Positions 1 through 27,137 of a stretch of DNA of 27,137 nucleotides are shown here, piece after piece. The notes under the pieces were generated by a model. The model had not been told where the DNA came from, did no database searches, and saw only the letters and a program-made list of their open reading frames with translations. Numbering within the stretch: the stretch's first letter is position 1; each line of letters begins with the position of its first letter. Origin of the DNA: a virus. A program made the translations under genes and the position numbers. The DNA is taken from positions 1-27,137 of the IMG/VR virus record IMGVR_UViG_3300043786_000408; one strand, given 5' to 3'.

Positions 1-76
1 GAGTCAGCCTCGACAGGTCACCAGAGACCACGATCTGGTCGATGGCCTGCATGTCAGTCAGTGGAACGATGCTCAT
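1..76 (-). CDS. 5' fragment of the annealing-protein gene (duplicate end copy)
   Basis: This is the first 25 codons of the RecT/Rad52-like gene that is complete at 26229-27086. It appears here only because the circular sequence was cut inside the gene. It is not a separate or broken gene. Its ATG (74-76) overlaps the exonuclease stop codon (73-75). Confidence 0.9.
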   Translation of the reverse strand, partial: MSIVPLTDMQAIDQIVVSGDLSRLT

Positions 77-127
77 GCTGCCACCTCCATGCCTTCCTCC
101 AGTTGCCGACGCAGCCAGACAGGGACC
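1..127. repeat. 127-bp terminal direct repeat (circular join)
   Basis: Bases 1-127 are identical to bases 27011-27137. The copy lies inside coding sequence: the start of the annealing-protein gene and the end of the exonuclease gene, which overlap by four bases as ATGA. Both genes read correctly when the ends are joined. This is what an assembler leaves at the ends of a circular contig, and 127 is a common maximum assembly k-mer, so I read it as an assembly overlap and not as biological terminal redundancy. The unit genome is then 27,010 bp. Confidence 0.93.
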
Positions 128-3198: not shown

Positions 3199-3381
3199 AT
3201 GAAAGCAATCCTGCTCATTCTTCTGGGAACCCTGATTGCGTTGCCGGGTCTGTTTGCGGTTGTCGCCGGTGAAGGCGGCGTGGCCGTCAAGGTCGGCGGC
3301 AGCCTTGCCATCGCAGTCGGCGTGGGTGTCTTCCTCTACGGTCTGGTCCTCAATCACAAAGACCACACGCAGAAGCGGTAG
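3199..3381 (+). CDS. Small two-helix membrane protein (60 aa)
   Basis: 60 residues starting MKAILLILLGTLIALPGLFA. Residues 3-23 and about 31-51 are hydrophobic enough to span the membrane. The C-terminus is short and charged (NHKDHTQKR). This gene and the next, two bases downstream, are the only genes on the plus strand, divergent from the integrase and convergent with the late operon. That placement fits genes expressed from the prophage, for example superinfection exclusion or membrane modification, but no family is recognised. Base composition and open frame agree with coding; there is no strong ribosome site. Confidence 0.6.
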   Translation: MKAILLILLGTLIALPGLFAVVAGEGGVAVKVGGSLAIAVGVGVFLYGLVLNHKDHTQKR

Positions 3382-3383
3382 TC

Positions 3384-3596
3384 ATGCCGACTGTCCAAGA
3401 ACCAGAGCCCGCAATGGCCAACAGCGGCCGACTGCGGCTGATTCTGCGGATCATCTCCGGAGCCTTGCTGGCAATCATCGTGCTGGCGTGGATTGTGTCC
3501 GATCCTCGTAACCGAGCGCTGCAGAGCGATGTACAGGCGTGCGGGGTGGTCATGGTGTTCGCCTTCCTGGCCACCTTCGTCAAGCGTGGCGTCTAG
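3384..3596 (+). CDS. Small two-helix membrane protein (70 aa)
   Basis: 70 residues with a polar N-terminus (about 16 residues), a first membrane segment at about 20-38 (LILRIISGALLAIIVLAWIV) and a second at about 53-66. An internal ATG at 3414 is an alternative start. It begins two bases after the upstream stop, so the two membrane proteins form an operon. Its stop codon (TAG, 3594-3596) overlaps the stop of the convergent late-operon gene in the palindrome CTAG. Function unknown; exclusion protein or holin-like are possibilities. Confidence 0.6.
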   Translation: MPTVQEPEPAMANSGRLRLILRIISGALLAIIVLAWIVSDPRNRALQSDVQACGVVMVFAFLATFVKRGV

Positions 3597-3619
3597 GTTT
3601 TCGTCCGGTCGACCACGCT
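3583..3619. terminator. Possible bidirectional stem-loop at convergent gene ends
   Basis: AGCGTGG (3583-3589) and CCACGCT (3613-3619) form a 7-bp stem around a 23-base loop that holds both stop codons and the run GGTTTTCG. The site is where a bidirectional terminator is expected, but the stem is short and the loop long. Weak call. Confidence 0.25.
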
Positions 3620-4099
3620 CATCGCCAGGCCCTTGAGCGCCTGCATGACGCTCTCGACGCTGCCGCCCACGCCTGTCACCGGCTGGAACTTCCCAACCGG
3701 GCACGACACGCTGGCCATCGTCAACTTCACCGAGAGCGCGGCCCGTCGGCTGCCGCCGCAGCCGCACTTCGTGCAGAACCCGATACCGCCTGGGTCGGTG
3801 TTGTCCTCGAGGCTGTCCACCCGGTGCTCGCAGCTGCGGCAGGCGGCCTTGCGGGCTTCGACCACCTCGGCCGGGGCCGGCCCGTTGAGGGCGTGATTCG
3901 CCTCAGCCTTCAGGTACTCCACCGCCCTGGCTGTGGTTGCTCCGTAGGTCACGGTCGTGCCCTCGGGCTGCTCGCCGCCGACAACCCGGTGCGGGCAGCG
4001 GCCGCAGACGCCAAGGCTGGGGCGGCCGCCGTAGTGACCAGCAGCGCAGCAGCCACCTGACTTGACCGTGCACGGGGACCAGTGGTCGCACTCAATCAC
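3593..4099 (-). CDS. Cys-rich zinc-ribbon-like protein, last gene of the late operon
   Basis: 168 residues from a GTG at 4099 that overlaps the upstream stop as GTGA; another GTG at 4135 is possible. Twelve cysteines are visible. The C-terminal part has a CRSCEHR pair, then GFCTKCGCGG and a final CPVGKF. This C-x2-C...C-x2-C-x-C...CP-x-GK pattern recurs in small phage proteins and suggests a metal-binding ribbon. The first 35 residues hold a second cluster (CDHWSPC, GGCC, CGRCPH). It is the promoter-distal gene of the late strand, after the membrane-protein cluster and another Cys-rich protein. No enzymatic function is evident. Confidence 0.72.
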   Translation of the reverse strand: MIECDHWSPCTVKSGGCCAAGHYGGRPSLGVCGRCPHRVVGGEQPEGTTVTYGATTARAVEYLKAEANHALNGPAPAEVVEARKAACRSCEHRVDSLEDNTDPGGIGFCTKCGCGGSRRAALSVKLTMASVSCPVGKFQPVTGVGGSVESVMQALKGLAMSVVDRTKT

Positions 4100-4764
4100 G
4101 AGACCACCGCCGACGCAGATGGATTGCAGTTCCACGCATCCTGTTCATCGCAGAAATACAGATCGCCAGTGCAATCGCCATAAGAGCCTCGAGGATCTGC
4201 TTGCCCGTCTGCCTTGCAAACAGTCACGAGACCGCCAGCGCACCCGCCTGTCGCTTGGCACGCACCGGACGGGTACTGACATAAGCACACGTTTGATGAG
4301 TCGCCAGCCAAATATCCCACAGCCTGATAGCCCTTGACAGTAAACGCAAACCTAAGAGCCCAGAGCTTGCACTGTCCAAACTGACCAGTCCCATCGTCGT
4401 ACGTGCAGCTGTCTGGAGCGAGTGACACCTGATACAGCTGGCCTTCGGTGTGAAAGCACTCTTCACCACTGATTGGCTCGCAGTCGAAGTCAAAGGTTAT
4501 GCCCGTGCACAGGTAACTAGTGCAACTTGAGCCCGGCGCGTATGTCCTGGTAGCCAACCATTCGTACCGGGTGCACTGCAGGCAGGCTCCGCACAATCCC
4601 GAACTCGTAAGCACAAGAACAGTCGAAACAATCCTCGAATTGCCGCAGCAATCCGAAAATGTAATGGTGGCCAGAACGCTGCTCGGTAGCGTTGTGGATT
4701 CTGGACACTCGCAGCCAGTGAGGCACGAGCCGCCACAGCAGCACGACGCCGGAACTAGGTTCAC
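4096..4764 (-). CDS. Highly Cys-rich protein, probable virion surface or host-contact protein
   Basis: 223 residues from a GTG at 4764 overlapping the upstream stop (GTGA). About 25 cysteines (11%) are spread over the whole length, with clusters CCCGGSC, CECPES and CGACLQC. It is rich in Ser, Thr, Gly and aromatic residues and low in charge, which suits a secreted or virion protein stabilised by disulfides; the spacing is less like zinc fingers. No signal peptide is visible. It follows the membrane-protein cluster and precedes a second Cys-rich gene. Possible roles are a receptor-binding or decoration protein. I do not recognise a family. Confidence 0.7.
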   Translation of the reverse strand: MNLVPASCCCGGSCLTGCECPESTTLPSSVLATITFSDCCGNSRIVSTVLVLTSSGLCGACLQCTRYEWLATRTYAPGSSCTSYLCTGITFDFDCEPISGEECFHTEGQLYQVSLAPDSCTYDDGTGQFGQCKLWALRFAFTVKGYQAVGYLAGDSSNVCLCQYPSGACQATGGCAGGLVTVCKADGQADPRGSYGDCTGDLYFCDEQDAWNCNPSASAVVS

Positions 4765-4886
4765 TTCTTGAACCAGCCCGAAATGCGGTCGAGGCTGACG
4801 ACATGCCCGGCGATGTAGCCCACGGCCAGGCATGCGAACGCGGCCCAGATAGAACCGATCAGACTTTCAGCGGTGGCGAGAATCAT
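4761..4886 (-). CDS. Small single-TM protein, holin-like (41 aa)
   Basis: 41 residues from an ATG at 4886, preceded by AGGAGA at eight bases and overlapping the upstream stop (ATGA). Another ATG at 4916 would add ten polar residues but lacks these signals. Residues about 5-33 form one hydrophobic helix; the C-terminus is basic (DRISGWFKK). Size and topology suit a small holin or a membrane accessory protein. It lies between a lipoprotein gene and a Cys-rich gene, each coupled by a four-base overlap. No sequence family recognised. Confidence 0.6.
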   Translation of the reverse strand: MILATAESLIGSIWAAFACLAVGYIAGHVVSLDRISGWFKK

Positions 4887-5404
4887 GGTCTTGTCTCCTG
4901 TTGAGTTTTTCGCCATGCCGCGTCGAACTCCTTGTCCGATGCTCGCTTCATGGCGATCCATTCCCGAATCGTCTCGGGCTTGTCCGTTGCCATCGTGGCC
5001 GCCGCCATCTCGGCCTCGTGCACCTTGCGACGGGGCAGCCACCCGATGGCCACCCGAATCGCCGCACCGATGCCGGTGGCGTGAACTAGGTACACCGCCG
5101 CGGCGCCGGCCAGGGCGATCAGGCCCCACTGCAGCAGGGTGGCCCACCAAGGCGTGATATCCCGCACCTGCGTCACGCGCTGGTGGATGACGCCAACGCT
5201 CCTCTGGATCGACTGAGCCTCGAGGCTGATCGTCGCGGCATCGGTCACCACTTCGGGCTGGCTCGACTGGGCACCGATCCGCTCTGCCAGACCGCGGATT
5301 GTGGCGGCTCGGTCGCCCACCGCCGTGGCTTGGACGCTGATGGCCTCAGCAGACGAGCAGCCCGCCAGGGCCACGAGGATCAGGAACAGCAGCGACCGGA
5401 TCAC
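4883..5404 (-). CDS. Lipoprotein with internal transmembrane segment, spanin-like layout
   Basis: 173 residues from a GTG at 5404 overlapping the upstream stop (GTGA). The N-terminus is a lipoprotein signal: basic start, hydrophobic core and lipobox LAGC with Cys16. A periplasmic region to about residue 85 is helical. A second membrane segment runs about 86-107, followed by a charged tail of roughly 65 residues. A lipid anchor at one end plus a membrane helix recalls unimolecular spanins, which link outer and inner membranes at lysis, but here the helix is not C-terminal. The neighbours are two other small membrane proteins, so a lysis cassette is plausible; a lipoprotein with another role cannot be excluded. 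Confidence 0.62.
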   Translation of the reverse strand: MIRSLLFLILVALAGCSSAEAISVQATAVGDRAATIRGLAERIGAQSSQPEVVTDAATISLEAQSIQRSVGVIHQRVTQVRDITPWWATLLQWGLIALAGAAAVYLVHATGIGAAIRVAIGWLPRRKVHEAEMAAATMATDKPETIREWIAMKRASDKEFDAAWRKTQQETRP

Positions 5405-5682
5405 CGGCGACCCTCCAGCCTGTCCAGCCGCGTCCCGACCGCCTGCAGGGCCTCTCCGTGCTTCTGGTCGTTGGCTGCACCAAGCACCTGGCTCTTCACC
5501 AGTTCCTGGGCGATGGCCCGCAGCTCGGATATGTCGCGGTCCTGCCGTTCGAGGATGGCGTCCTTGCGGCCGAGCGTGACGAACACTCCGGCCACGCCGA
5601 TGATGAGCGTGACCAGCTGCAGCAGGCTGATGGCGAACGCCAGCTGCGGGTTGGTCTGGTGGCGTGGTCCAAGGGGCGTCAT
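5401..5682 (-). CDS. Membrane-anchored coiled-coil protein, holin or inner-membrane spanin candidate
   Basis: 93 residues from an ATG at 5682 overlapping the upstream stop (ATGA). After a short polar N-terminus, residues about 13-37 form one membrane helix (AFAISLLQLVTLIIGVAGVF). The rest (about 40-91) is a charged coiled coil. This form, one N-terminal helix and a soluble helical domain, is shared by inner-membrane spanins and some holin-like phage proteins. It is followed by the lipoprotein gene, which would be the natural partner of an inner-membrane spanin. No endolysin is found nearby, so the lysis role is inferred from topology and order only. Confidence 0.58.
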   Translation of the reverse strand: MTPLGPRHQTNPQLAFAISLLQLVTLIIGVAGVFVTLGRKDAILERQDRDISELRAIAQELVKSQVLGAANDQKHGEALQAVGTRLDRLEGRR

Positions 5683-6209
5683 TCGCAGGCTCCGTCGATG
5701 GCGTTGGGGCAGCAGAAGAAAAACAAGGGCTGCCCGTTGTCGCGGTTGAGCGCGTACATGAGCACCACCGTGTTGTTGGCGATGGGCTTGATCAGGTAGC
5801 CAGCGGGGATGTTGGCCGTGGTGATGCCAGGGCCCAGCGTGGTGGTGGCACCGATGATCTGCGGTCCCTCGCAGCCGTTGAACGCACGGCCGAGCGTTCC
5901 GCTGGTCAGGCTGCTCTTCCGCCGATAGTCCTTGGCTGTCTGGTAGGCGTCGGAACCGTTGACAAACGCCTCCTCCCAGTCGTACCGCCACGCCACCGGC
6001 GTGTTGGCGACGCCGCCCACCGTGGCCGTCTTGCCGCTGATAGCGGTCGAGCCCGTGATGCGGGCCACGATGAGGGTGGGGATCTTGACGCCAGCAGCGG
6101 CGGGGGTCCGCCGGTCATCGTTGTACGAGTTGACCGCGTCCGCAATGACCCGCACCTGGTTCGGAGACCAGGGACCGATCGGCCTCTTGGTTGAACCGTT
6201 GACTCTCAT
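5679..6209 (-). CDS. Unassigned late protein, possible tail-tip component (176 aa)
   Basis: 176 residues from an ATG at 6209 that overlaps the upstream stop (ATGA). After a Pro/Arg-rich N-terminus the sequence is mainly beta-like with many Thr, Gly, Ile and Val residues (e.g. VKIPTLIVARITGSTAISGK), and a Cys pair and a single Cys near the C-terminus. It comes two genes after the tape measure and directly before the membrane-protein cluster, where baseplate or tail-fibre genes normally sit. I see no known domain. Confidence 0.65.
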   Translation of the reverse strand: MRVNGSTKRPIGPWSPNQVRVIADAVNSYNDDRRTPAAAGVKIPTLIVARITGSTAISGKTATVGGVANTPVAWRYDWEEAFVNGSDAYQTAKDYRRKSSLTSGTLGRAFNGCEGPQIIGATTTLGPGITTANIPAGYLIKPIANNTVVLMYALNRDNGQPLFFFCCPNAIDGACE

Positions 6210-13155: not shown

Positions 13156-14481
13156 TCAGTTCTTGCCACGCAGGAATCGGAACGCGTCCGTCTGCGTGTA
13201 CTTGATGTCAACCCGGCTGGTGCAGACCATGCCGATGTTGTCCTCGTCCGCGAAGCGCTCGTTGAGCACACGCAGCGAGAACTGGCTGCGCTGTCCAATC
13301 ACGAGGAAGTCGAACGCACCGATCAGGCCGCAGATGCCGCCACCGGTGTAGCCCGTCGACGTGGTGGCCGGATCGGGCACGTAATGCGACGCGTAGATCG
13401 GAATGCCCATCACGCGGTCGGGCTCGCCCAGGACGCCGCTCGGCTGCCAGAAGTAGGTGGTTGTCGAGCTGGACAGAATCGGCGCCTGCCGGATGAACTG
13501 CAGCACCTTGTCGCTCACCAGGATCGCGCAGCTGGGGTGCTGGCGATACTGACGCGGCAGGCTGTACACGAGGTCCTGAATCTCAGCGGCAGTGATCGCC
13601 GTGTTAGCGGCCAACTGCTTGCCGACCGACGGACCCGTCGAGGCAGTCGTGGCAGACGGTCCGACCGTCAGGATGCCAGTGGGCTGTCCGGACGCGCCGG
13701 TGCCCACGAGGAAGCCCTGCTCCTCCTTCTCCGCAAAACCCTTGGCGAAGGAGTTGGTCAGGATGTTCTCCAGGCTGAAGCCCGGGCCGCGGGCGGGGGC
13801 GTCCTCGGCCAGCTCGCGGCTGACCTTGGCGAGACCCGCCAGCTTCTTGGCGTTGAGGACCACGCTGCTGAAGGTGGGGTTGGTGCTCAGCGAGTCAGTG
13901 ATTGAGCTGCCTTCCGTGGTCCAGTTGACCGAAGCCACGTTGCTCTCGATCACCAGGTCACGCTTCCATGACCCCATCGGCATGATCTGGGCGAGTTTGC
14001 GCAGGGTCACGACCTTCTGCAACTGCTCGAAGATCTTGTCGCTGAACTCGGTCGGGGCGATCACATCGCCCAGGCCCGTGCCACCCTCGCTCAGGGCGCG
14101 CTGCTCGTTCGGCCCGATCAGCTCGCCGCGGCGGAGGTAGGAGTCGAACGCATCCCGGTACTCGTCGGTATCGGCCCACGAGCCCCAGCGGGTGCCCTTG
14201 TTGGCCTTGACCGCCTTGGTCGCGGAGCGACGCTCGGGAGCGTCGGGCGACTCAACCCAGCCCAGGTTGGTGTCCTTTTGGGCCAGCTGCATGAGGCTCA
14301 CGTTCCGCTCGCGCTGCTCCTGCAGCTTGCGGTACTCGGCCTGCATCGCGTCGAAGCGCTGCGTGTCCTCGGCGCTCATGTCGCCGCCGTTCTCGTTCGC
14401 CGCGTCGATCATCGACTGCATCTCGCGGTAGAGGGCGCCCATCTTCTCGACGAGCCCTCGGTAGGTGTCCTTGTCGTTCAT
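13156..14481 (-). CDS. HK97-fold major capsid protein with N-terminal delta domain
   Basis: 441 residues, ATG at 14481 with AAGGGA upstream. Residues 1 to about 70 are a charged coiled coil (VEKMGALYREMQSMIDAAN...), the delta/scaffolding domain that the prohead protease removes in HK97-type phages. The HK97 fold runs from about 105: N-arm, the SEGGTGLGDVIAPTEFSD start, E-loop region with VNWTTEGSSIT, spine helix with KVSRELAEDA, and the P-domain and A-domain to the C-terminal ERFADEDNIGMVCTSR. It is one of two tandem paralogues; with the delta domain, this copy looks like the main shell protein. Confidence 0.92.
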   Translation of the reverse strand: MNDKDTYRGLVEKMGALYREMQSMIDAANENGGDMSAEDTQRFDAMQAEYRKLQEQRERNVSLMQLAQKDTNLGWVESPDAPERRSATKAVKANKGTRWGSWADTDEYRDAFDSYLRRGELIGPNEQRALSEGGTGLGDVIAPTEFSDKIFEQLQKVVTLRKLAQIMPMGSWKRDLVIESNVASVNWTTEGSSITDSLSTNPTFSSVVLNAKKLAGLAKVSRELAEDAPARGPGFSLENILTNSFAKGFAEKEEQGFLVGTGASGQPTGILTVGPSATTASTGPSVGKQLAANTAITAAEIQDLVYSLPRQYRQHPSCAILVSDKVLQFIRQAPILSSSTTTYFWQPSGVLGEPDRVMGIPIYASHYVPDPATTSTGYTGGGICGLIGAFDFLVIGQRSQFSLRVLNERFADEDNIGMVCTSRVDIKYTQTDAFRFLRGKN

Positions 14482-14505: not shown

Positions 14506-15756
14506 TCAGGACCGGTTTACGTTCAACACGCCTGAGGAATGGAGGAGAGCCCCGTCCGCCCGCACGCTGGCGACGAAGGCTGTGGAATCGGTGTCCGCGT
14601 ACCGCTCGCTCAGACGCGTCACGGTGAAACCCGCGAAGTTGGTCACGAGGAGGTACTTGCTCGGATCGAAGAACATCACCAGCGTGTCGCCGCTGGCTGG
14701 AGTGGTATTGCTCAGCCGGTGATAAATCGTCGGCAGGCCCTCGACCGTCGTGCCCTGCTTCATGTTGCCCATGAACACCGGGAACAGCGGCGGGTAGAAG
14801 GTCGAGTCAAACGATGCGGTGAGTCGGCTGTTGATCACCGCGACGCTGTTGATCCACTGTTCGTACGCCATGGGCGACAGCGCCGAGTTGGTCGAGGCCC
14901 ACGCACCGGCCAGGATGTCGCTGGCCTTGTTGGTGGTCGCCACGCCGGTGCTGGCCGTGCGGCTGTACGCCTTGGCGGAATTGAACGCGCCCTGACACTC
15001 GCTCGTGCCGTTGCCAATCAGGATTTGACGGTTGATCTCGGTCTTCAGTTCGCTTGCAAACTCTTGCAACAGGAACTGCTCGACGCTAGCTGCGGCGGCT
15101 GAATCCTCCAGCAGCTCGTTGCTGACGCGGGCCCAGATGTGGACCTTCTTGAGGCCAAAGGTGTAGGTCGTGCTGCCGCCGCTGCCTTGCTGCGGCAGAG
15201 CAAACTGCGTGCTGCTGGTGTACGACTCGGTGCGCAGTCCCTCAGTGCCGATCACGGCAGTAGCGGTCGCACCCGAGCCGCCGCCGCCCGAGAAACTGAC
15301 CGTCGGAGCAGACGTGTAGCCGCTGCCAGCGTTGGTCACCGCAATGCTGACCACCGCGCCGCCGCTGATCGTGGCCGTGGCCGTGGCACCCGATCCACCG
15401 CCGCCGGTAAACGCCACCGTCGGGGCCGAGGTGTAGGCGCTTCCTCCAGCGGTCACGTCGATGCGTGCTACCACGCTGGTGTTATTGATGACATCCGAGC
15501 CGACGTAGATGGGGGCAGTGAACTTCTCGGAACTCTGCACCATGCGGACGCGGCTCAGGATTGCGTCCTGCTGCATCGCCGAGTCGATGAAGTCGATCCA
15601 GCCCGTGGGGGCGACGCCGCTGCCCAGGCCGGAGCCAGACAGGCTCAGGGCTCGGGTCTCAGCATCGCTGAGGCGGTTGACGCCGTGCCTCAGGTACGTC
15701 TGGAACAGGTGGCGGTACTCGTCGCCGCCGCGGTCCAGGGTTGTCTTGGTTGCCAT
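14506..15756 (-). CDS. Second HK97-fold capsid paralogue with repeat insertion
   Basis: 416 residues, ATG at 15756 with CGGAGA seven bases upstream. It aligns with the neighbouring capsid protein throughout: [38 protein letters not shown], and [14 protein letters not shown] near the C-terminus. It differs in two ways. It has no coiled-coil delta domain. At residues about 96-170, in the region corresponding to the E-loop, it carries two repeats of about 38 residues ([19 protein letters not shown] type). It could be a second shell protein, a vertex protein or a duplicated capsid gene used as decoration. It is the first gene after the 225-bp leader. Confidence 0.85.
15241..15471. repeat. Two ~115-bp coding repeats in the second capsid gene
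   Basis: The two units (residues about 96-133 and 134-172 of the paralogue) share [19 protein letters not shown]. Each looks like a small beta domain of the GSGY...P-V-F-GGGGSGA class found as repeats in many phage structural proteins. They are similar but not identical at DNA level. Confidence 0.75.
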
Positions 15757-15980
15757 CACAGTCTCCGGGGTTATCGCCGGGACTGCGCAGCAAAATGGCG
15801 CACTGACCCGGCGGTTGTCTTCGTCGTTGACATCCGCAGTTCGAGCCAGTGCGCCACACGGGCTGCACGGAGGATCGCTCGCTCGTCAGTCAGCGTGCAC
15901 TAGGCAGGGGCTGCTGGGAGCGGAGGTATGAGTTGTCGGGTTCATTAGACCAATTCAGGAACCCGGTTCAAGGGGCAACG
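15757..15980 (-). promoter_or_regulatory. Capsid leader with candidate promoter and inverted repeat
   Basis: This 224-base stretch holds no gene and is the longest gap in the genome. On the minus strand, TTGAAC (15966-15971), 16 bases, then TCTAAT (15944-15949) form a candidate -35/-10 promoter firing into the capsid genes. Downstream, TGGCGCACTG (15796-15805) and CAGTGCGCCA (15847-15856) are perfect inverted repeats with a 41-base loop; in the transcript they would form a long-range stem before the capsid start. Confidence 0.5.
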
Positions 15981-18249: not shown

Positions 18250-19874
18250 GTGATGGTCCTTTCTTCGTAGACGCTGGGTCCGTGCTCGTCCTGCTTCTGG
18301 TGCAGCCAGGTGGCGAGCGCGGTGACGAGAGCAGCGAGCGGGTCAATGCGCTCCGTGCTGCTCGACTTCGATGGCTTGAGGTTCCCGGCCGGGTCCTGAT
18401 CCACGACCGTGTTGCTGACTGCCCAGTTCAGTAGGCAGTTGTCGGGGTGACGAATCTTCCGGCTGGTCACCAGGGCTTCGAGCCGCTTGCACGGTTCGCT
18501 GAGCGTGCGGAATCCTTGCCGCACCTCAAGCATGGGAACGCCCTCGGTGTAGAGCCCGCTGGCCAGCTGCGTGGCGTTCCATGGGTCGTAGCCGATGTGC
18601 CGCACCTGGTAGCGGCGGAACACGTCGCGGATGCGGGCCGCGATGTGGTCGTAGTCCACCACCGAGCCCGGCGTCGGGTGCAAGTGGCCCTTGCTCGCCC
18701 ACACGTCGTACGGGGCCCGGTCACTCCGGCTGCGCCGGCGGATGCCTTCCTCTGGGCACCAGGTCCACGTGAGCACGTCCACCGACCCGTCGCCGGCAGG
18801 AAACACCAGCGCCAGCGAAGACAGGTCCGTTGTCGTGGACAGGTCCAGCCCACCCCAGCACTCACGGCCCTGCAGGCTGTCGGCGTCCGCCGCGCTCGAC
18901 GCACACGCCGCCCAGGCGTCGCTGCTGATCCAGACCCGCTTGCTCTCGGTCCACTGGCACAGGTACAGCTGGCGGAACGTGGTCTCGTAGGTCGGCAGTT
19001 CCTTCGCCTTGTCGCACTCAGCCCGCAGGAACTCTTCCGACACGGTGACACCCAGAGAGGGGTTGCACTGCCGCCAGACCTTCGGGCTCTTCCAGTCCGC
19101 CTCGACCGGAGCGGAGAACAGCACCGGCATGAACGCCGGGTCCTCAATGACACCGTCCCGTACCTTGGCCGCGTAGTCGTGCAGTTCCCAGCACAGGCTT
19201 TCGCGGTCGTGTCCTGCGGTCGTGATGCAGACCTGCAGCGGCTGCTTGCGAGCACCCATCGAGGTCACCATCGCGTCGTACAGGTCGCGGTCCGCGAATG
19301 TGTGCACCTCGTCGAAGATCACGCATGACGCGTTCTTGCCGTGCTTGGTCCCCGCGTCGCTGCTCAGCACCTCCAGTTTCGACGTGCCGAACGTGATCAC
19401 GTTGCGGAACACCTCGACCTTCGACGCCAGTTCGGCGTTGCTCTGCACCATCTGCCTGCAGGCGTCTCCGACAATCGCCGCCTGGTCGCGGGCTGAGGCA
19501 CAGCAGTAAACCTCGGCTCCCTGCTCGTGGTCGCAGAGCAGCATGTAGAGCCCGATCGCAGCCAACAAAGTGCTCTTGCCGTTCTTCCGCGGGATCTCGA
19601 TGTACGCGCTGCGAAATCGACGGGTGCCGTCGGCACGCTTCCAGCACAGCAGGGCACCAAGCAGGTCGCGTTGCCAGGGCAGCAGCTCGAAGGGGCGGCC
19701 CGCCCACACGCCCTTGGTGTGACGCAGCAGCCCGAAAAACTGCGTCAGGCGCTGCAGTTCCTCCACGTCAAACCAGTCGCCCTTGCGGGCGGTGGCTGAC
19801 GCACTGAAGCCCGCGACGGGGGCCAGCTTGTCAGGCGATCTTCGGCTTAAGGAGCGCGTCGATGCCCGAGGCAT
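18240..19874 (-). CDS. Terminase large subunit
   Basis: 544 residues, ATG at 19874, overlapping the small-subunit gene by 44 bases. It packages DNA with an ATPase and cuts it with an RNase H-like nuclease. Visible: Q-motif-like LPWQRDLL, Walker A PRKNGKST (95-102), Walker B CVIFDEVH (184-191), and nuclease residues in GLDLSTTTDLSS (Asp344, Asp350) with a C-terminal RIDPLAALVTAL carrying the third acid. Length is typical of the HK97/P27-associated type. With the adjacent HNH gene this suggests cohesive-end packaging, but no cos site could be located by eye. Confidence 0.95.
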   Translation of the reverse strand: MPRASTRSLSRRSPDKLAPVAGFSASATARKGDWFDVEELQRLTQFFGLLRHTKGVWAGRPFELLPWQRDLLGALLCWKRADGTRRFRSAYIEIPRKNGKSTLLAAIGLYMLLCDHEQGAEVYCCASARDQAAIVGDACRQMVQSNAELASKVEVFRNVITFGTSKLEVLSSDAGTKHGKNASCVIFDEVHTFADRDLYDAMVTSMGARKQPLQVCITTAGHDRESLCWELHDYAAKVRDGVIEDPAFMPVLFSAPVEADWKSPKVWRQCNPSLGVTVSEEFLRAECDKAKELPTYETTFRQLYLCQWTESKRVWISSDAWAACASSAADADSLQGRECWGGLDLSTTTDLSSLALVFPAGDGSVDVLTWTWCPEEGIRRRSRSDRAPYDVWASKGHLHPTPGSVVDYDHIAARIRDVFRRYQVRHIGYDPWNATQLASGLYTEGVPMLEVRQGFRTLSEPCKRLEALVTSRKIRHPDNCLLNWAVSNTVVDQDPAGNLKPSKSSSTERIDPLAALVTALATWLHQKQDEHGPSVYEERTITWV

Positions 19875-20298
19875 CCCCCTTCTGCTTTCTCGACGAAACT
19901 AGACCCACACGACTTGCAGGAGTTAGCCCAAACTCCTTGCCGATCTTCGACGCCTCAGCCCAGGCATCGTCACGGACTTTCTTCATCGGATTCTGCCACT
20001 TGCCCTGGGCGGTTTCAATGACCAGCCCGGCCTGTCGGACCTCCGCATCAGCACGCTCCATCTCGGCCATCAACGCGGCCCAGCGATTGTGAGCGGCGTA
20101 GTCCTCGGCCGCGTACAGACCCATCCGCCGAAGGTCCTCGATCAGCCTGTCGAAGTACCAGCGAGCCCGCTCGTCGCTGGCGACAAACGGCAGCAGCAAC
20201 GCGGGCCCGTCGGTTCCGGTCGGCTCTTCAGCGCGCACCTTCGCCTTTTCGCTGCCTCGAAACTGCAGAATCGCTGTCGGTGTCGGTTTGCGTCCCAT
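19831..20298 (-). CDS. Terminase small subunit, P27 family
   Basis: 155 residues. The ATG at 20298 is preceded by a perfect AGGAGG at six bases; the frame extends further upstream but without support. It begins MGRKPTPTAILQFRGSEKAK and continues with the family's DERARWYFDRLIEDLRRMGL, AAEDYAAHNRWAALMAEMERA, GKWQNPMKKVRDDAWAEASK and EFGLTPASRV. The small subunit recognises the packaging site and hands it to the large subunit. The gene is directly upstream of the large subunit, as in HK97-type phages. Confidence 0.9.
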   Translation of the reverse strand: MGRKPTPTAILQFRGSEKAKVRAEEPTGTDGPALLLPFVASDERARWYFDRLIEDLRRMGLYAAEDYAAHNRWAALMAEMERADAEVRQAGLVIETAQGKWQNPMKKVRDDAWAEASKIGKEFGLTPASRVGLVSSRKQKGDASGIDALLKPKIA

Positions 20299-20370
20299 AT
20301 CAAGCCTCCTATTCACCGATTCGGGAGCCGCGTGTAGACAGGGCCCGGTGTCGGTCATGCCGATATTGCG

Positions 20371-22377: not shown

Positions 22378-22617
22378 TCAACCCGGAGAGACGTACGCGT
22401 TCCCAGCCTTGTCGTACCGCACCCGCCCGCTGTAGGTCCATTGTCCGGTGTTCGGGTCGTGCAGGTAAATGCCCTCGGTGTAAATGTCCTTGGACAGGGC
22501 TGCCGGTAGATCGTCCAGGCAAATGCCGCAGACGATTGGCACACGGATCTCCACGTCCGTGTCCTCGACCGTGACCACGTCGCCGTCGCAAGGACCCCAT
22601 CTCAGCACCGTCTCCAT
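22378..22617 (-). CDS. Hypothetical protein (79 aa)
   Basis: 79 residues, ATG at 22617, overlapping the upstream gene by 16 bases. Mostly beta-like with a CGIC pair (Cys30, Cys33), a single Cys10, and a central GIYLHDPNTGQWTYSGR that could be a turn-rich domain. It lies in the early/replication block upstream of the resolvase-like nuclease. Function unknown. Confidence 0.6.
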   Translation of the reverse strand: METVLRWGPCDGDVVTVEDTDVEIRVPIVCGICLDDLPAALSKDIYTEGIYLHDPNTGQWTYSGRVRYDKAGNAYVSPG

Positions 22618-22955
22618 GACGGCATTCTCCCCGCCGTGCGTTCACGTTCCATAGTCAACCCGGCCTCATGGATCAGCCGAGCCCACTCGGTTACCTCGTC
22701 TTGACCTGGGGCGTGCTTGGTGATGGCCCACCGGCACCGTTCCCGCTCGACGCCCCAGCACCGGCAGGCGGCACACGTCGACAGGCGACCGAGCCTCCGG
22801 ACCAGCGTGACGTACAGGGCCAGCTGCTCCGGGTTGTCTGCCGCCTGACCCCGGAGCGTGGCCACGGCCCTGGGCGTCCAGCTGCCCAGTTCCAGCCATG
22901 CGATGGTCCGCATGACAAGGTCCGCCCTTCCCGCCACCCGAATCTCGGGGTTCAT
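22602..22955 (-). CDS. Hypothetical protein with Cys cluster; start overlaps motif array
   Basis: 117 residues, ATG at 22955 with AAGGA nine bases upstream. A first helical half is followed by CAACRCW (Cys61, Cys64, Cys66) and Cys74, a possible metal site. The remaining C-terminus is helical and charged. Two copies of the CCCCGAGATT-type motif flank its start: one in the ribosome-binding region, one spanning codons 2-6. If the motif is a protein-binding site, this gene is its likeliest direct target. No family recognised. Confidence 0.6.
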   Translation of the reverse strand: MNPEIRVAGRADLVMRTIAWLELGSWTPRAVATLRGQAADNPEQLALYVTLVRRLGRLSTCAACRCWGVERERCRWAITKHAPGQDEVTEWARLIHEAGLTMERERTAGRMPSWRRC

Positions 22956-23081
22956 TCTCGGGGTCCTTCAAGGCAGCAGGACGAATCTCGGGGGGGAATC
23001 CCTTTAGGGATTCCCCCCGAGATTCTCCTGCCCAATCTCGGGGGGTAATCTCGGGGCCCCGAGATTCTTGCCCCGAGATTC
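22940..23081. repeat. Array of eight (G)AATCTCGGGG motifs, iteron- or operator-like
   Basis: Forward copies (plus strand) at 22940-22950, 22954-22963 (one mismatch), 22983-22993, 23034-23043 and 23047-23056; inverted copies at 23015-23025, 23057-23067 and 23071-23081. Copies 23047-23056 and 23057-23066 form a perfect 20-bp palindrome. Copies at 22983 and 23015 are the ends of a long hairpin with one bulge (22983-23025, loop TTTA). Most of the array fills the space between the primase-helicase stop and the next gene start. No T-tract follows, so it is not a simple terminator. Clustered, mixed-orientation copies next to a replication gene fit an origin or a multi-site operator. Confidence 0.88.
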
Positions 23082-23100
23082 TCCGGGTAGTTATCAGGGC

Positions 23101-25011
23101 TCACGACGCCCTCCGATACTTGGCCGAACGGCCGTCCCCAACCTGCTCCAGAAGCGGCCTCCGCTTGGGTGTCTTGGCGACCGCCTGCTCCTTCAAGGTG
23201 CGGACTCGGTTCTCCTTGAGCCCGGCCTCGGCACCACAGGCCACCAGTTCCTTGTACGACCATTCAGTCGCCGGCGTCGGGAAGAACTCGTCAACGAACC
23301 GGTCAACGTTCCAGCCGTCATCCTTGCCCTTCCTGGCCTTCTTCAGTGTCTTGGGATCGGCCATGGGCTCGGGGTAGAACCGCGGGTACTCGAACCGCAC
23401 GACGGCTGGCTGGATCGGCGCCCAAGACCGGCAGGCCGCGTCGATTACCAGGTGCTTCTCCAGCTCGTGCTCCCGCAGGACCAGATGCGTGTCCGCAGCC
23501 CGGCTCATGGACCCGGCCCCTGAGCCCACGTCGGTCACCGCCTTCTCGGCCTGGCTGCCCTTGCTCGTGTGGTGGATGCAGACCAGGGCCGCGTCCAGCC
23601 TTTTGGCCATGGCGTCCAGCCGGTTGTACGTGCTGGCCATGTACGAGTTGTCGTTCTCGTCGGCACCGTCCCCAATGTTGAACCGGTAGAAGGCGTCGAA
23701 GATGACCAGCCCGTAGTGACCGGGCTGCACGGGCTTCAGCAGGCCATCGTCCAGGCTCTGGAACGACTGCAGGGCACCGCGGAGGCTCTTGACCTCCAGC
23801 CACCCGTCCAGCTCCTCCAGCGGGATTCCCATGGCGCTGGCGACCCGCTGCAGGCGTTCCGCCAGCGTCTCTTCGTGCAGCTCGTTGTCGATCAGCAGGA
23901 CCTTGGACCGCTCGACCTTGTACGTGTTCATCCACGCCCGCCCGGTCGCCACGCACAGGGCAAGGTCCAGCACCATCCACGACTTGCCAGTCTTGGGCGC
24001 GGCGATGATGTTCATGGTCTCGCCGGACCGCAGCAGGCCGTGCACTAGCGGTCGCCGCATCGCCGGGTTGGCCCGTATCAGGTCCAGGATGCCCACCGGC
24101 TGGCTCACGGGCTCGGACTCGTCGGCTGCCTCCACCTCCTCAGCCCGCCCCCTACAGGGCGTCCTGTCGCCCTTGAACGCGTTGCGGACCTGCCTGGGCA
24201 CGTCGGCGAGTTCATCGGGCTCAAGCCTCAGCAGCCGGGCCCGCTTGAGGATGGCACGCTCGGCGTCCCCCTGGTCCCACTCACGGGCCCGCAGGTCGCA
24301 GGCGACCGTAAAGATCGTCTGCCGCCGCCCGGCCCGCATCACGAAGCCCTCGTGCAGGAACCGCTGGGACAAGTCCGACAGCGAGCCCGGGACCACGTGC
24401 TCGTCCACCGCCTCGGCCGCAAACTGCACCGGGTCGGGGAACTCGTCTAATTCGTACACGTTATCCGGCTCTGTCGATTCGACAACGCACAGCGGCTGGT
24501 GGTGGTACTTCCAGTTTCGGAAGCCCGGCAGACGCATGATCCGTGGTGCGTCGGTCACGGCCTGGTCCGACCCGAGCCGGATGGCCAGCGCCTTCTGGCG
24601 TGCCGTCCACGCCTTCAGGTCCTCCATGGGCTCGAGCAGCCGCCACCAGGCATGCACGCCGCCGCCGGTGGACACGATCACCGTGGGCTCCGGGATCAGT
24701 GCCTCGGTCCACCGACGCCTGGCTTCTTGGACGCTCACGCCACCGTCGAAGTCGGCGAACAGGCAGCGGGCCAGCCCGACGTGCTCGGCCTTACCGCCGC
24801 GCTCTTTGCGCGGGTTGGCTCCGAAGTACACGTGCGTGCCTGCCGGGTACGCCCGCAATACGTTCAAGCAGGTTGAAGATTCCTGCAGTGTGGCCCAGTG
24901 TTGGCTGGGCCTGGTCCCGATGGTGCGGAACTCGATCAGGTCGCCGGGCTCAAAGATGAACCCAAGCAGCTGCATCGCAGCCTCGACCTCGGCGGTAACG
25001 GTGTCAGGCAT
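23101..25011 (-). CDS. Primase-helicase (archaeo-eukaryotic primase + RepA-like ATPase)
   Basis: 636 residues, ATG at 25011 with AAGGA seven bases upstream. N-terminal primase domain: FADFDG (Asp87, Asp89), STGGGVHAWW (Ser114, His120) and APRIMRLPGFRNWK, the catalytic pattern of PrimPol/RepB-like primases. A linker leads to a RecA-fold helicase: Walker A APKTGKS (338-344), LLIDNEL, Walker B LVIFDA (435-440) and CIHHTSKG (478-485), typical of RepA/AAA_25 helicases. The last ~90 residues look like a winged helix (EWSYKELVACGAEAGL, then RVRTLKEQAV). One protein supplies priming and unwinding. It is directly followed by the motif array, a likely partner as origin. Confidence 0.9.
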   Translation of the reverse strand: MPDTVTAEVEAAMQLLGFIFEPGDLIEFRTIGTRPSQHWATLQESSTCLNVLRAYPAGTHVYFGANPRKERGGKAEHVGLARCLFADFDGGVSVQEARRRWTEALIPEPTVIVSTGGGVHAWWRLLEPMEDLKAWTARQKALAIRLGSDQAVTDAPRIMRLPGFRNWKYHHQPLCVVESTEPDNVYELDEFPDPVQFAAEAVDEHVVPGSLSDLSQRFLHEGFVMRAGRRQTIFTVACDLRAREWDQGDAERAILKRARLLRLEPDELADVPRQVRNAFKGDRTPCRGRAEEVEAADESEPVSQPVGILDLIRANPAMRRPLVHGLLRSGETMNIIAAPKTGKSWMVLDLALCVATGRAWMNTYKVERSKVLLIDNELHEETLAERLQRVASAMGIPLEELDGWLEVKSLRGALQSFQSLDDGLLKPVQPGHYGLVIFDAFYRFNIGDGADENDNSYMASTYNRLDAMAKRLDAALVCIHHTSKGSQAEKAVTDVGSGAGSMSRAADTHLVLREHELEKHLVIDAACRSWAPIQPAVVRFEYPRFYPEPMADPKTLKKARKGKDDGWNVDRFVDEFFPTPATEWSYKELVACGAEAGLKENRVRTLKEQAVAKTPKRRPLLEQVGDGRSAKYRRAS

Positions 25012-26232: not shown

Positions 26233-27086
26233 AGTCGGATCTCCTTGCTGTTGTCAGGGTGATTGCTCAGGGCCTCGTGCCACTCCTCGAGGACCGCCCT
26301 GGTGCCCTCGGGTGTCTTTCCCTTCTTCTTGGCTGCGGCCAGTGCCTGCATGGCGGTGCGCCTCTGACCCGTGTTTCGGGCCAACGCAGCCACCTGCTCG
26401 GCCAGATCCTCAAGACTCACCTCGCCGCCATCCGTGGCGGCAGGGTCCGGCACCTGCTCCGTGCCGGTCGCAGCCCTCGGCGCCGGCGGGTCGCACGCCG
26501 CCAGCGCCGGGGCCACGGGAGCCGCCACGGGCCCATCCGACGTGGGACCCGCAGCAGTGAGCGCGTTCAGCCTGGCCAGCCGGTCAGAAGACACGGCACG
26601 CACAGGCTGCAGGGCAGGACCGCCATCGCCGATCTCCGTTTCGTCGGGGAAGCCCAGCCCGCAGATGCTCAGAGTGAGGCGACGCTTGGCCTTCGTCTCG
26701 GCCTTCATCATGGCGTTGGCAAGCTCGACACCACGCAGGCCGGTGATGCTCACCGACCCGCTTGCCTCGTCGCGTCGGCCCTCCTTGTCTTGGCCGCGCA
26801 CCGTGACCGTGTAGACGCCGCCCTCGGTGTCCGTGATCCGGCCCGTGATCCGCACGCTGACGCCGTGGATCTGACGCAGCTGCTCGCTGCAGTCCTTCGT
26901 GGCGTACATGACCAGCCGACCTTGGAACTGCTGGAAGGAGAAGGGCCGCGTGGCCGGGTTGAGGCCCAGCGACTGGCAGACGTGGTGCACGTAAGACACC
27001 CGCTGCTCAGGAGTCAGCCTCGACAGGTCACCAGAGACCACGATCTGGTCGATGGCCTGCATGTCAGTCAGTGGAACGATGCTCAT
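26229..27086 (-). CDS. RecT/Rad52-like ssDNA-annealing recombinase
   Basis: 285 residues, ATG at 27086 with GGAGG seven bases upstream. Typical segments are LTPEQRVSYVHHVCQSLGLN, YATKDCSEQLRQIHGVSV and ANAMMKAETKAKRRLTLSIC followed by GLGFPDETEIGD, known from a large group of phage annealing proteins. The last ~110 residues are a low-complexity linker and charged helical tail. Joining the ends, its ATG overlaps the exonuclease stop (ATGA) and its own stop overlaps the SSB start (GTGA). It would anneal strands exposed by the exonuclease. Which annealase superfamily it belongs to is uncertain. Confidence 0.78.
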   Translation of the reverse strand: MSIVPLTDMQAIDQIVVSGDLSRLTPEQRVSYVHHVCQSLGLNPATRPFSFQQFQGRLVMYATKDCSEQLRQIHGVSVRITGRITDTEGGVYTVTVRGQDKEGRRDEASGSVSITGLRGVELANAMMKAETKAKRRLTLSICGLGFPDETEIGDGGPALQPVRAVSSDRLARLNALTAAGPTSDGPVAAPVAPALAACDPPAPRAATGTEQVPDPAATDGGEVSLEDLAEQVAALARNTGQRRTAMQALAAAKKKGKTPEGTRAVLEEWHEALSNHPDNSKEIRL

Positions 27087-27137
27087 GCTGCCACCTCCAT
27101 GCCTTCCTCCAGTTGCCGACGCAGCCAGACAGGGACC
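27011..27137. repeat. Second copy of the 127-bp terminal repeat
   Basis: Identical to bases 1-127. The last 55 bases (27083-27137) hold the 3' end of the exonuclease gene that is complete at 73-915. Confidence 0.93.

Follow-up and report, generated by a model that had tools for sequence, protein, structure and literature searches.

A probable phage replication origin in which the repeat word diverges together with the winged-helix domain of the adjacent primase-helicase

A mixed-orientation repeat array of 142 bases with a long hairpin, located directly downstream of the primase-helicase gene of an uncultivated phage, is probably the replication origin of this phage; the repeats would act as iterons bound by the winged-helix (wHTH) domain of its own primase-helicase, alongside a conserved hairpin. 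Notable is the concerted change of the repeat word and the initiator domain: as judged by sequence comparison, the word changes in step with its presumed reader domain across dozens of related phages. Origins of uncultivated phages are rarely identified, and this candidate could be located from sequence alone. We analyzed one stretch of DNA at its full length of 27,137 nucleotides (IMG/VR record IMGVR_UViG_3300043786_000408), hereafter the window, together with its relatives.

Genomic context of the array

The first 127 bases of the window (1-127) are exactly repeated as its last 127 (27011-27137), and three near-full-length contigs (G001, G002, and G004) represent the same circle opened elsewhere. 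Given this terminal repeat and the different opening points of the relatives, the window represents a complete circular phage genome of 27,010 bp. Its integrase, portal, terminase, and capsid genes indicate a temperate-type tailed phage, and distant primase relatives on Planctomycetota MAG contigs suggest a planctomycete host. The main genes all run leftwards (- strand). The array lies between the stop codon of the 636-aa primase-helicase gene and a 117-aa gene, and the block running leftwards from 22955 encodes a small protein, a resolvase, an HNH protein, the terminase, and the structural proteins.

23101..25011, - strand: primase-helicase, 636 aa (RepB_primase, AAA_25, and C-terminal winged helix)
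23104..23316, - strand: C-terminal winged-helix domain (wHTH), aa 566-636, the proposed motif reader
22602..22955, - strand: following gene (117 aa), unmatched to any family, overlapping copies 7 and 8 at its 5' end
19831-20358: small terminase gene, about 2.6 kb from the array

Anatomy of the repeat array

The first-pass annotation had reported eight clustered copies of a short motif, five in one orientation and three in the other. This count held: seven exact copies of AATCTCGGGG and one single-mismatch copy (ATTCTCGGGG) fall within 22941-23080, five on the + and three on the - strand (three forward and five inverted in gene sense, i.e., on the - strand). We numbered the copies 1-8 in gene sense, with copy 1 nearest the primase-helicase stop codon.

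23071..23080, - strand: copy 1, nearest the primase-helicase stop codon
23057..23066, - strand: copy 2, second half of the perfect palindrome
23047..23056, + strand: copy 3, one half of the perfect palindrome
23047..23066, no strand: perfect 20-bp palindrome, AATCTCGGGGCCCCGAGATT
23034..23043, + strand: copy 4
22976..23031, no strand: long hairpin; stem of 25 bp interrupted by single-base bulges; loop at 23003-23006 (CCC-TAAA-GGG, gene sense)
23015..23024, - strand: copy 5, 5' arm of the long hairpin
22984..22993, + strand: copy 6, 3' arm of the long hairpin
22954..22963, + strand: copy 7, ATTCTCGGGG, with a single mismatch; immediately precedes the downstream ORF's ATG
22941..22950, + strand: copy 8, AATCTCGGGG, in codons 2-5 of the downstream ORF
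22952..23104, - strand: 50-aa ORF spanning the array, with a GTG start that overlaps the primase stop (read from sequence)

A search for AATCTCGGGG allowing one mismatch is expected to return 1.4 ± 1.2 matches per 27 kb, and eight were reached in none of 100 shuffles. Outside the array the record contains no exact match to the word, from which it follows that the other noncoding gaps lack the motif, as had been claimed; since the genome is complete, this absence holds genome-wide. A repeat score of 125 was obtained for the 150-bp window that begins 13 bp past the primase stop, compared to a maximum of 18 elsewhere in the genome. The 20-bp palindrome described earlier was likewise found to be perfect. 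Copies 7 and 8 flank the ATG (22953-22955) of the downstream gene, as first described, but this arrangement is not conserved: in group B (defined below) both flanking copies are kept, no ATG lies between them, and the start codon has moved downstream. We rejected a peptide encoded by the 50-aa ORF as the conserved element. Most differences from the 92% identical relative within this ORF alter an amino acid while the motif and hairpin are kept, indicating that the DNA motif rather than a peptide is conserved.

A covarying hairpin with a conserved loop

Folding of 22972-23033 yielded a 25-bp stem with a 4-nt loop (ΔG -27.5 kcal/mol as DNA; z -8.1), in line with the long hairpin initially noted. 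The stem covaries in the four other motif groups. All five groups (A, A', B, C, and D) preserve the 25-bp stem, and at each of the 16 of its 25 pairs that vary, both bases are exchanged (with a TG pair as one of the variants); folding z-scores are -7.4 to -10.8. The loop reads CC-TAAA-GG in the groups, with TAAC in A'. For all 12 loci tested (groups A-D, L084, and L086-L091), the strongest hairpin within 2.5 kb was the one at the array site. An intrinsic terminator was considered and rejected, the hairpin having no T-run on either side. A pattern scan for the conserved hairpin returned a single chance match (L056) without a primase.

Concerted replacement of the repeat word in close relatives

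Relatives with 63-92% identical primase-helicases, of which those at 63-72% identity were found with a degenerate helicase-motif pattern, fall with the window (group A) into five groups: A' (G001 and G002), B (L042, L043, and L048-L053), C (L046 and L054), and D (L047). The layout is the same throughout, i.e., two forward copies, two inverted copies, and then the long hairpin with the word in its arms; two further inverted copies follow the hairpin in A, A', B, and C. The word differs between groups, with nearly all copies changed together (AATCTTGNGG; AATCTGTCGGTG in group B; TCTCTTGNGG in group C; TGATTCGG in group D, where it lies inside a read-through extension of the ORF). The same layout thus follows the same gene with five different words. 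The motif had been expected to persist in close relatives; its layout does so, and the word itself is replaced in concert.

A strain at 98% identity retains the array. In G001 and G002, whose primases are 92% identical to that of the window, every copy is in place with its word changed: most copies have gone from AATCTCGGGG to AATCTTGGGG, AATCTTGTGG, or AATCTTGCGG, and both hairpin arms have changed in step. Copy 8 also reads AATCTTGGGG in these genomes, having followed the change at the cost of amino-acid replacements in the next gene. Homogenization by recombination is unlikely, because the copies stand in both orientations and at differing spacings; selection by one reader is the simpler account of the concerted change. 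G004 differs in that its primase is spread over four frames and the array is lost, with the downstream genes intact up to the phosphoesterase. This genome (L036, L037, and L026) carries frameshifts in its primase, terminase, portal, and capsid genes, retains intact integrase and nuclease genes, and has the appearance of either a prophage in decay or an assembly with many errors.

Co-divergence of the repeat word and the winged helix

The only Pfam matches of the 636-aa protein are RepB_primase (PF16793) and AAA_25 (PF13481). Among proteins of solved structure, it is closest in sequence to RepA, the helicase of RSF1010 (1g8y, E 5.6e-7), and to the AEP domain of a PrimPol (6zp9, E 8.7e-5). Residues 566-636 are predicted to form an H-E-H-H-E-E winged helix, mostly at pLDDT 77-89; the domain was also modeled alone. 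We used the C-terminal domain only, because the full-length AF2 model is unreliable in its central part (mean pLDDT 64). Structural matches to the domain are mostly winged-helix regulators, but they are weak, with none below E 0.001.

Comparison of groups A and A', which have different words, showed 78% identity in the C-terminal domain and 95% in the primase and helicase (p = 4e-6). The same-word pair L042 and L053 is 99% identical in the C-terminal domain and 93% elsewhere. The contrast between these two pairs was significant (p = 1.6e-5), and their core divergences do not differ. For A and C, whose words also differ, the C-terminus did not diverge significantly faster (p = 0.28). Among 20 deduplicated loci in which the wHTH is encoded by a separate gene, the array was correlated with the wHTH given the helicase (partial Mantel r = 0.69, p = 0.0002); no correlation was found between array and helicase given the wHTH (r = -0.03, p = 0.54). 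Linkage of the neighboring wHTH and array adds to their correlation. It is controlled in part, though not fully, since a control restricting the helicase to its 92 C-terminal residues, which adjoin the wHTH gene, gave the same result (0.69 vs -0.10) and thus argues against linkage alone.

Distribution of similar arrays

An unbiased repeat-density scan (7-mers, 150-bp windows) placed the densest repeat window at the 3' end of the primase-helicase/wHTH module in groups A-D, L084/L085, L057, L058, and L060. The same placement was observed in 31 split-gene loci, many of them near-identical, and in seven loci of Streptococcus, Paenibacillus, and Flavonifractor phages; Streptococcus phages of the Javan199 and Javan253 types are among the array carriers. 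Exceptions were G002, whose top repeat window genome-wide lies elsewhere (46 vs 35), and L089/L090, where the array near the primase-helicase is not the top window. In far relatives, comparable arrays occupy this position, with different words and other downstream genes.

In the members of a sister family (L114-L147), the wHTH tail is missing from the helicase and a separate gene comes next; in the better-scoring members this gene matches winged HTH families. The array starts where this gene ends. The array accordingly stays with the wHTH, whether fused or separate. About 300-600 bp past the helicase stop in this family, the wHTH ORF continues through the array, such that the iterons there encode a repetitive C-terminal tail; several of these loci also have a second GC-rich hairpin after the array.

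The group at 51% identity (L092-L111) has weak repeats, with a CTAAAG-loop hairpin in many of those checked. No array was found near the RepA-like helicases of four distant phages (Tlacuache, EastView9101, ReqiPine5, and Orla). A DNA search of a phage collection yielded no relative, and scanning genome contigs with A1 returned nothing; the corresponding scan with A4 identified three Planctomycetota MAG loci. A two-copy pattern scan of viral contigs was discarded, as it returned mostly unrelated tandem coding repeats (12- and 15-bp periods) and L021 as the only true relative. Separately, relatives at 51-52% identity contain another dense inverted-repeat cluster, of the GGCGTTTTTGGCCTGAAAACGCC type, lying downstream of the primase at a distance of about 2.7 kb (L101 9733-9932; L089 9626-9825; L090 6241-6440).

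Origin function and alternative explanations

An iteron origin and a multi-site operator had both been put forward for the array, and the comparative evidence favors the origin. As an operator, the array would bind a phage DNA-binding protein, possibly the same wHTH, that controls transcription from 22955 leftwards. Its position at the border between the replication genes and the downstream block, with copies overlapping the start of the next gene, is what such a role would lead one to expect. However, the array remains with the primase-helicase/wHTH module when the downstream genes differ, copies 7 and 8 persist in group B where the start codon has moved, and an operator alone needs no covarying 25-bp hairpin. 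The loss of the array in G004 despite intact downstream genes also speaks against it, with the reservation that G004 has other broken genes too. We therefore consider an operator unlikely as the primary role, though the array may have a secondary operator function besides that of an origin.

The strong covariation of the long stem, and the position of copies 7 and 8 around an ATG, could also be read as a structured RNA, i.e., an attenuator or translational switch in which forward and inverted copies pair in the operon mRNA. Such stems would not be required to share and jointly change one word, and the word tracks a DNA-binding domain. Moreover, no U-tract follows the hairpin, Rfam returned no match, and conservation does not extend to the start codon between copies 7 and 8, making this explanation very improbable. 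A site for partition, packaging (pac), or recombination that is recognized by a phage protein would account for clustered mixed-orientation sites, and the circularly permuted contigs of relatives are compatible with headful packaging; yet the small terminase gene lies about 2.6 kb away and the array follows the primase module, not the terminase, in other phages. We give this reading hardly any credence.

Two classical signatures were sought in the window. The first-pass annotation's suggestion of a GC-skew inflection did not hold, with no extremum of cumulative skew at the array and detrended extremes near 8.9 and 18.7 kb; neither did we find an AT-rich unwinding element beside the array (array 40% AT, genome 36%). 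Both arguments are weak in a small genome with co-oriented genes, where coding bias dominates skew.

Comparison with known origins and a proposed mechanism

Since no known system matched in all defining features, the proposed origin would work like those of SaPIs and P4, and of RSF1010 and pRN1, while being a member of none. In SaPIs, as summarized in PMC7581432 (citing Ubeda et al., 2007), the Rep C-terminal domain recognizes iterons directly downstream of its gene. The window likewise has short repeats directly downstream of an initiator helicase gene, and the co-divergence of word and wHTH would parallel the SaPI initiator's use of its C-terminal domain as specificity module. Unlike in SaPIs, the helicase is RepA-like (AAA_25) rather than DUF927/D5 by Pfam, the primase is fused, the sites are in mixed orientation with a conserved hairpin, and no AT-rich element was found. 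The satellite phage P4 alpha protein, a primase-helicase with a winged helix, binds origin repeats (PMC4234260). The window's protein has a similar makeup and is proposed to bind repeats too, but its primase is of the RepB/AEP rather than the Toprim type (Pfam).

The RSF1010 (IncQ) oriV employs RepA, RepB', and RepC, with RepC acting on iterons and RepB' on the ssiA hairpin of the ssiA/ssiB pair (PMC4434180, PMC4234260). Shared with it are a RepA-like helicase, a RepB-type primase, iterons, and a hairpin, and the separate small wHTH protein of the sister family resembles RepC in role. In contrast to RSF1010, the window has the three functions on one polypeptide, its wHTH being fused (a separate gene is found only in L114-L147), 10-bp sites in both orientations, and one long hairpin rather than two ssi sites; no GTG lies within about 20 nt 3' of this hairpin on either strand. 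Replication of pRN1, whose ORF904 combines prim-pol, helicase, and wHTH, requires a stem-loop 3' of the gene (PMC4234260). The window shares with pRN1 an AEP primase-helicase-wHTH on one chain and a stem-loop just 3' of the gene whose structure is kept while its sequence varies, but pRN1 has an SF3 helicase (the window's is not SF3, by Pfam), a long loop, and no iterons.

We infer the following mechanism. The C-terminal wHTH, or the separate small protein in the sister family, would bind the 10-bp copies as iterons in both orientations, load the RepA-like helicase ring beside its own gene, and open the duplex. The 25-bp hairpin with its invariant CTAAAG loop would then extrude as a structured single strand, on which the RepB-type primase domain would be positioned to begin synthesis, as for RepB' at ssiA of RSF1010. 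A change in wHTH specificity would subsequently select the same base change in nearly every copy. More speculatively, and with considerable doubt, this could represent a widespread phage module with the wHTH initiator and its iterons diversifying rapidly and jointly around a nearly invariant hairpin (CTAAAG loop) that serves as the start site of a RepB-type primase, giving double-stranded DNA phages an RSF1010-like start of strand-displacement replication; diversification might set incompatibility groups or permit escape from origin-targeting nucleases.

A single 2-kb module thus joins a RepB-type primase, a RepA-like helicase, a wHTH, putative iterons, and a hairpin that are known separately from RSF1010, SaPIs, and pRN1. 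Its dozens of natural wHTH/word pairs provide a ready set for deriving residue-to-base reading rules, and cultivable test systems are available in the Streptococcus and Paenibacillus phages that carry similar arrays.

Other features of the genome

A region of about 3 kb between the integrase and tail-side genes (3209-6205), without a confident gene call, includes several stretches that rank among the genome's most AT-rich. Two adjoining genes (13156-14481 and 14506-15759) each match the HK97-type Phage_capsid family and represent tandem major capsid paralogues.
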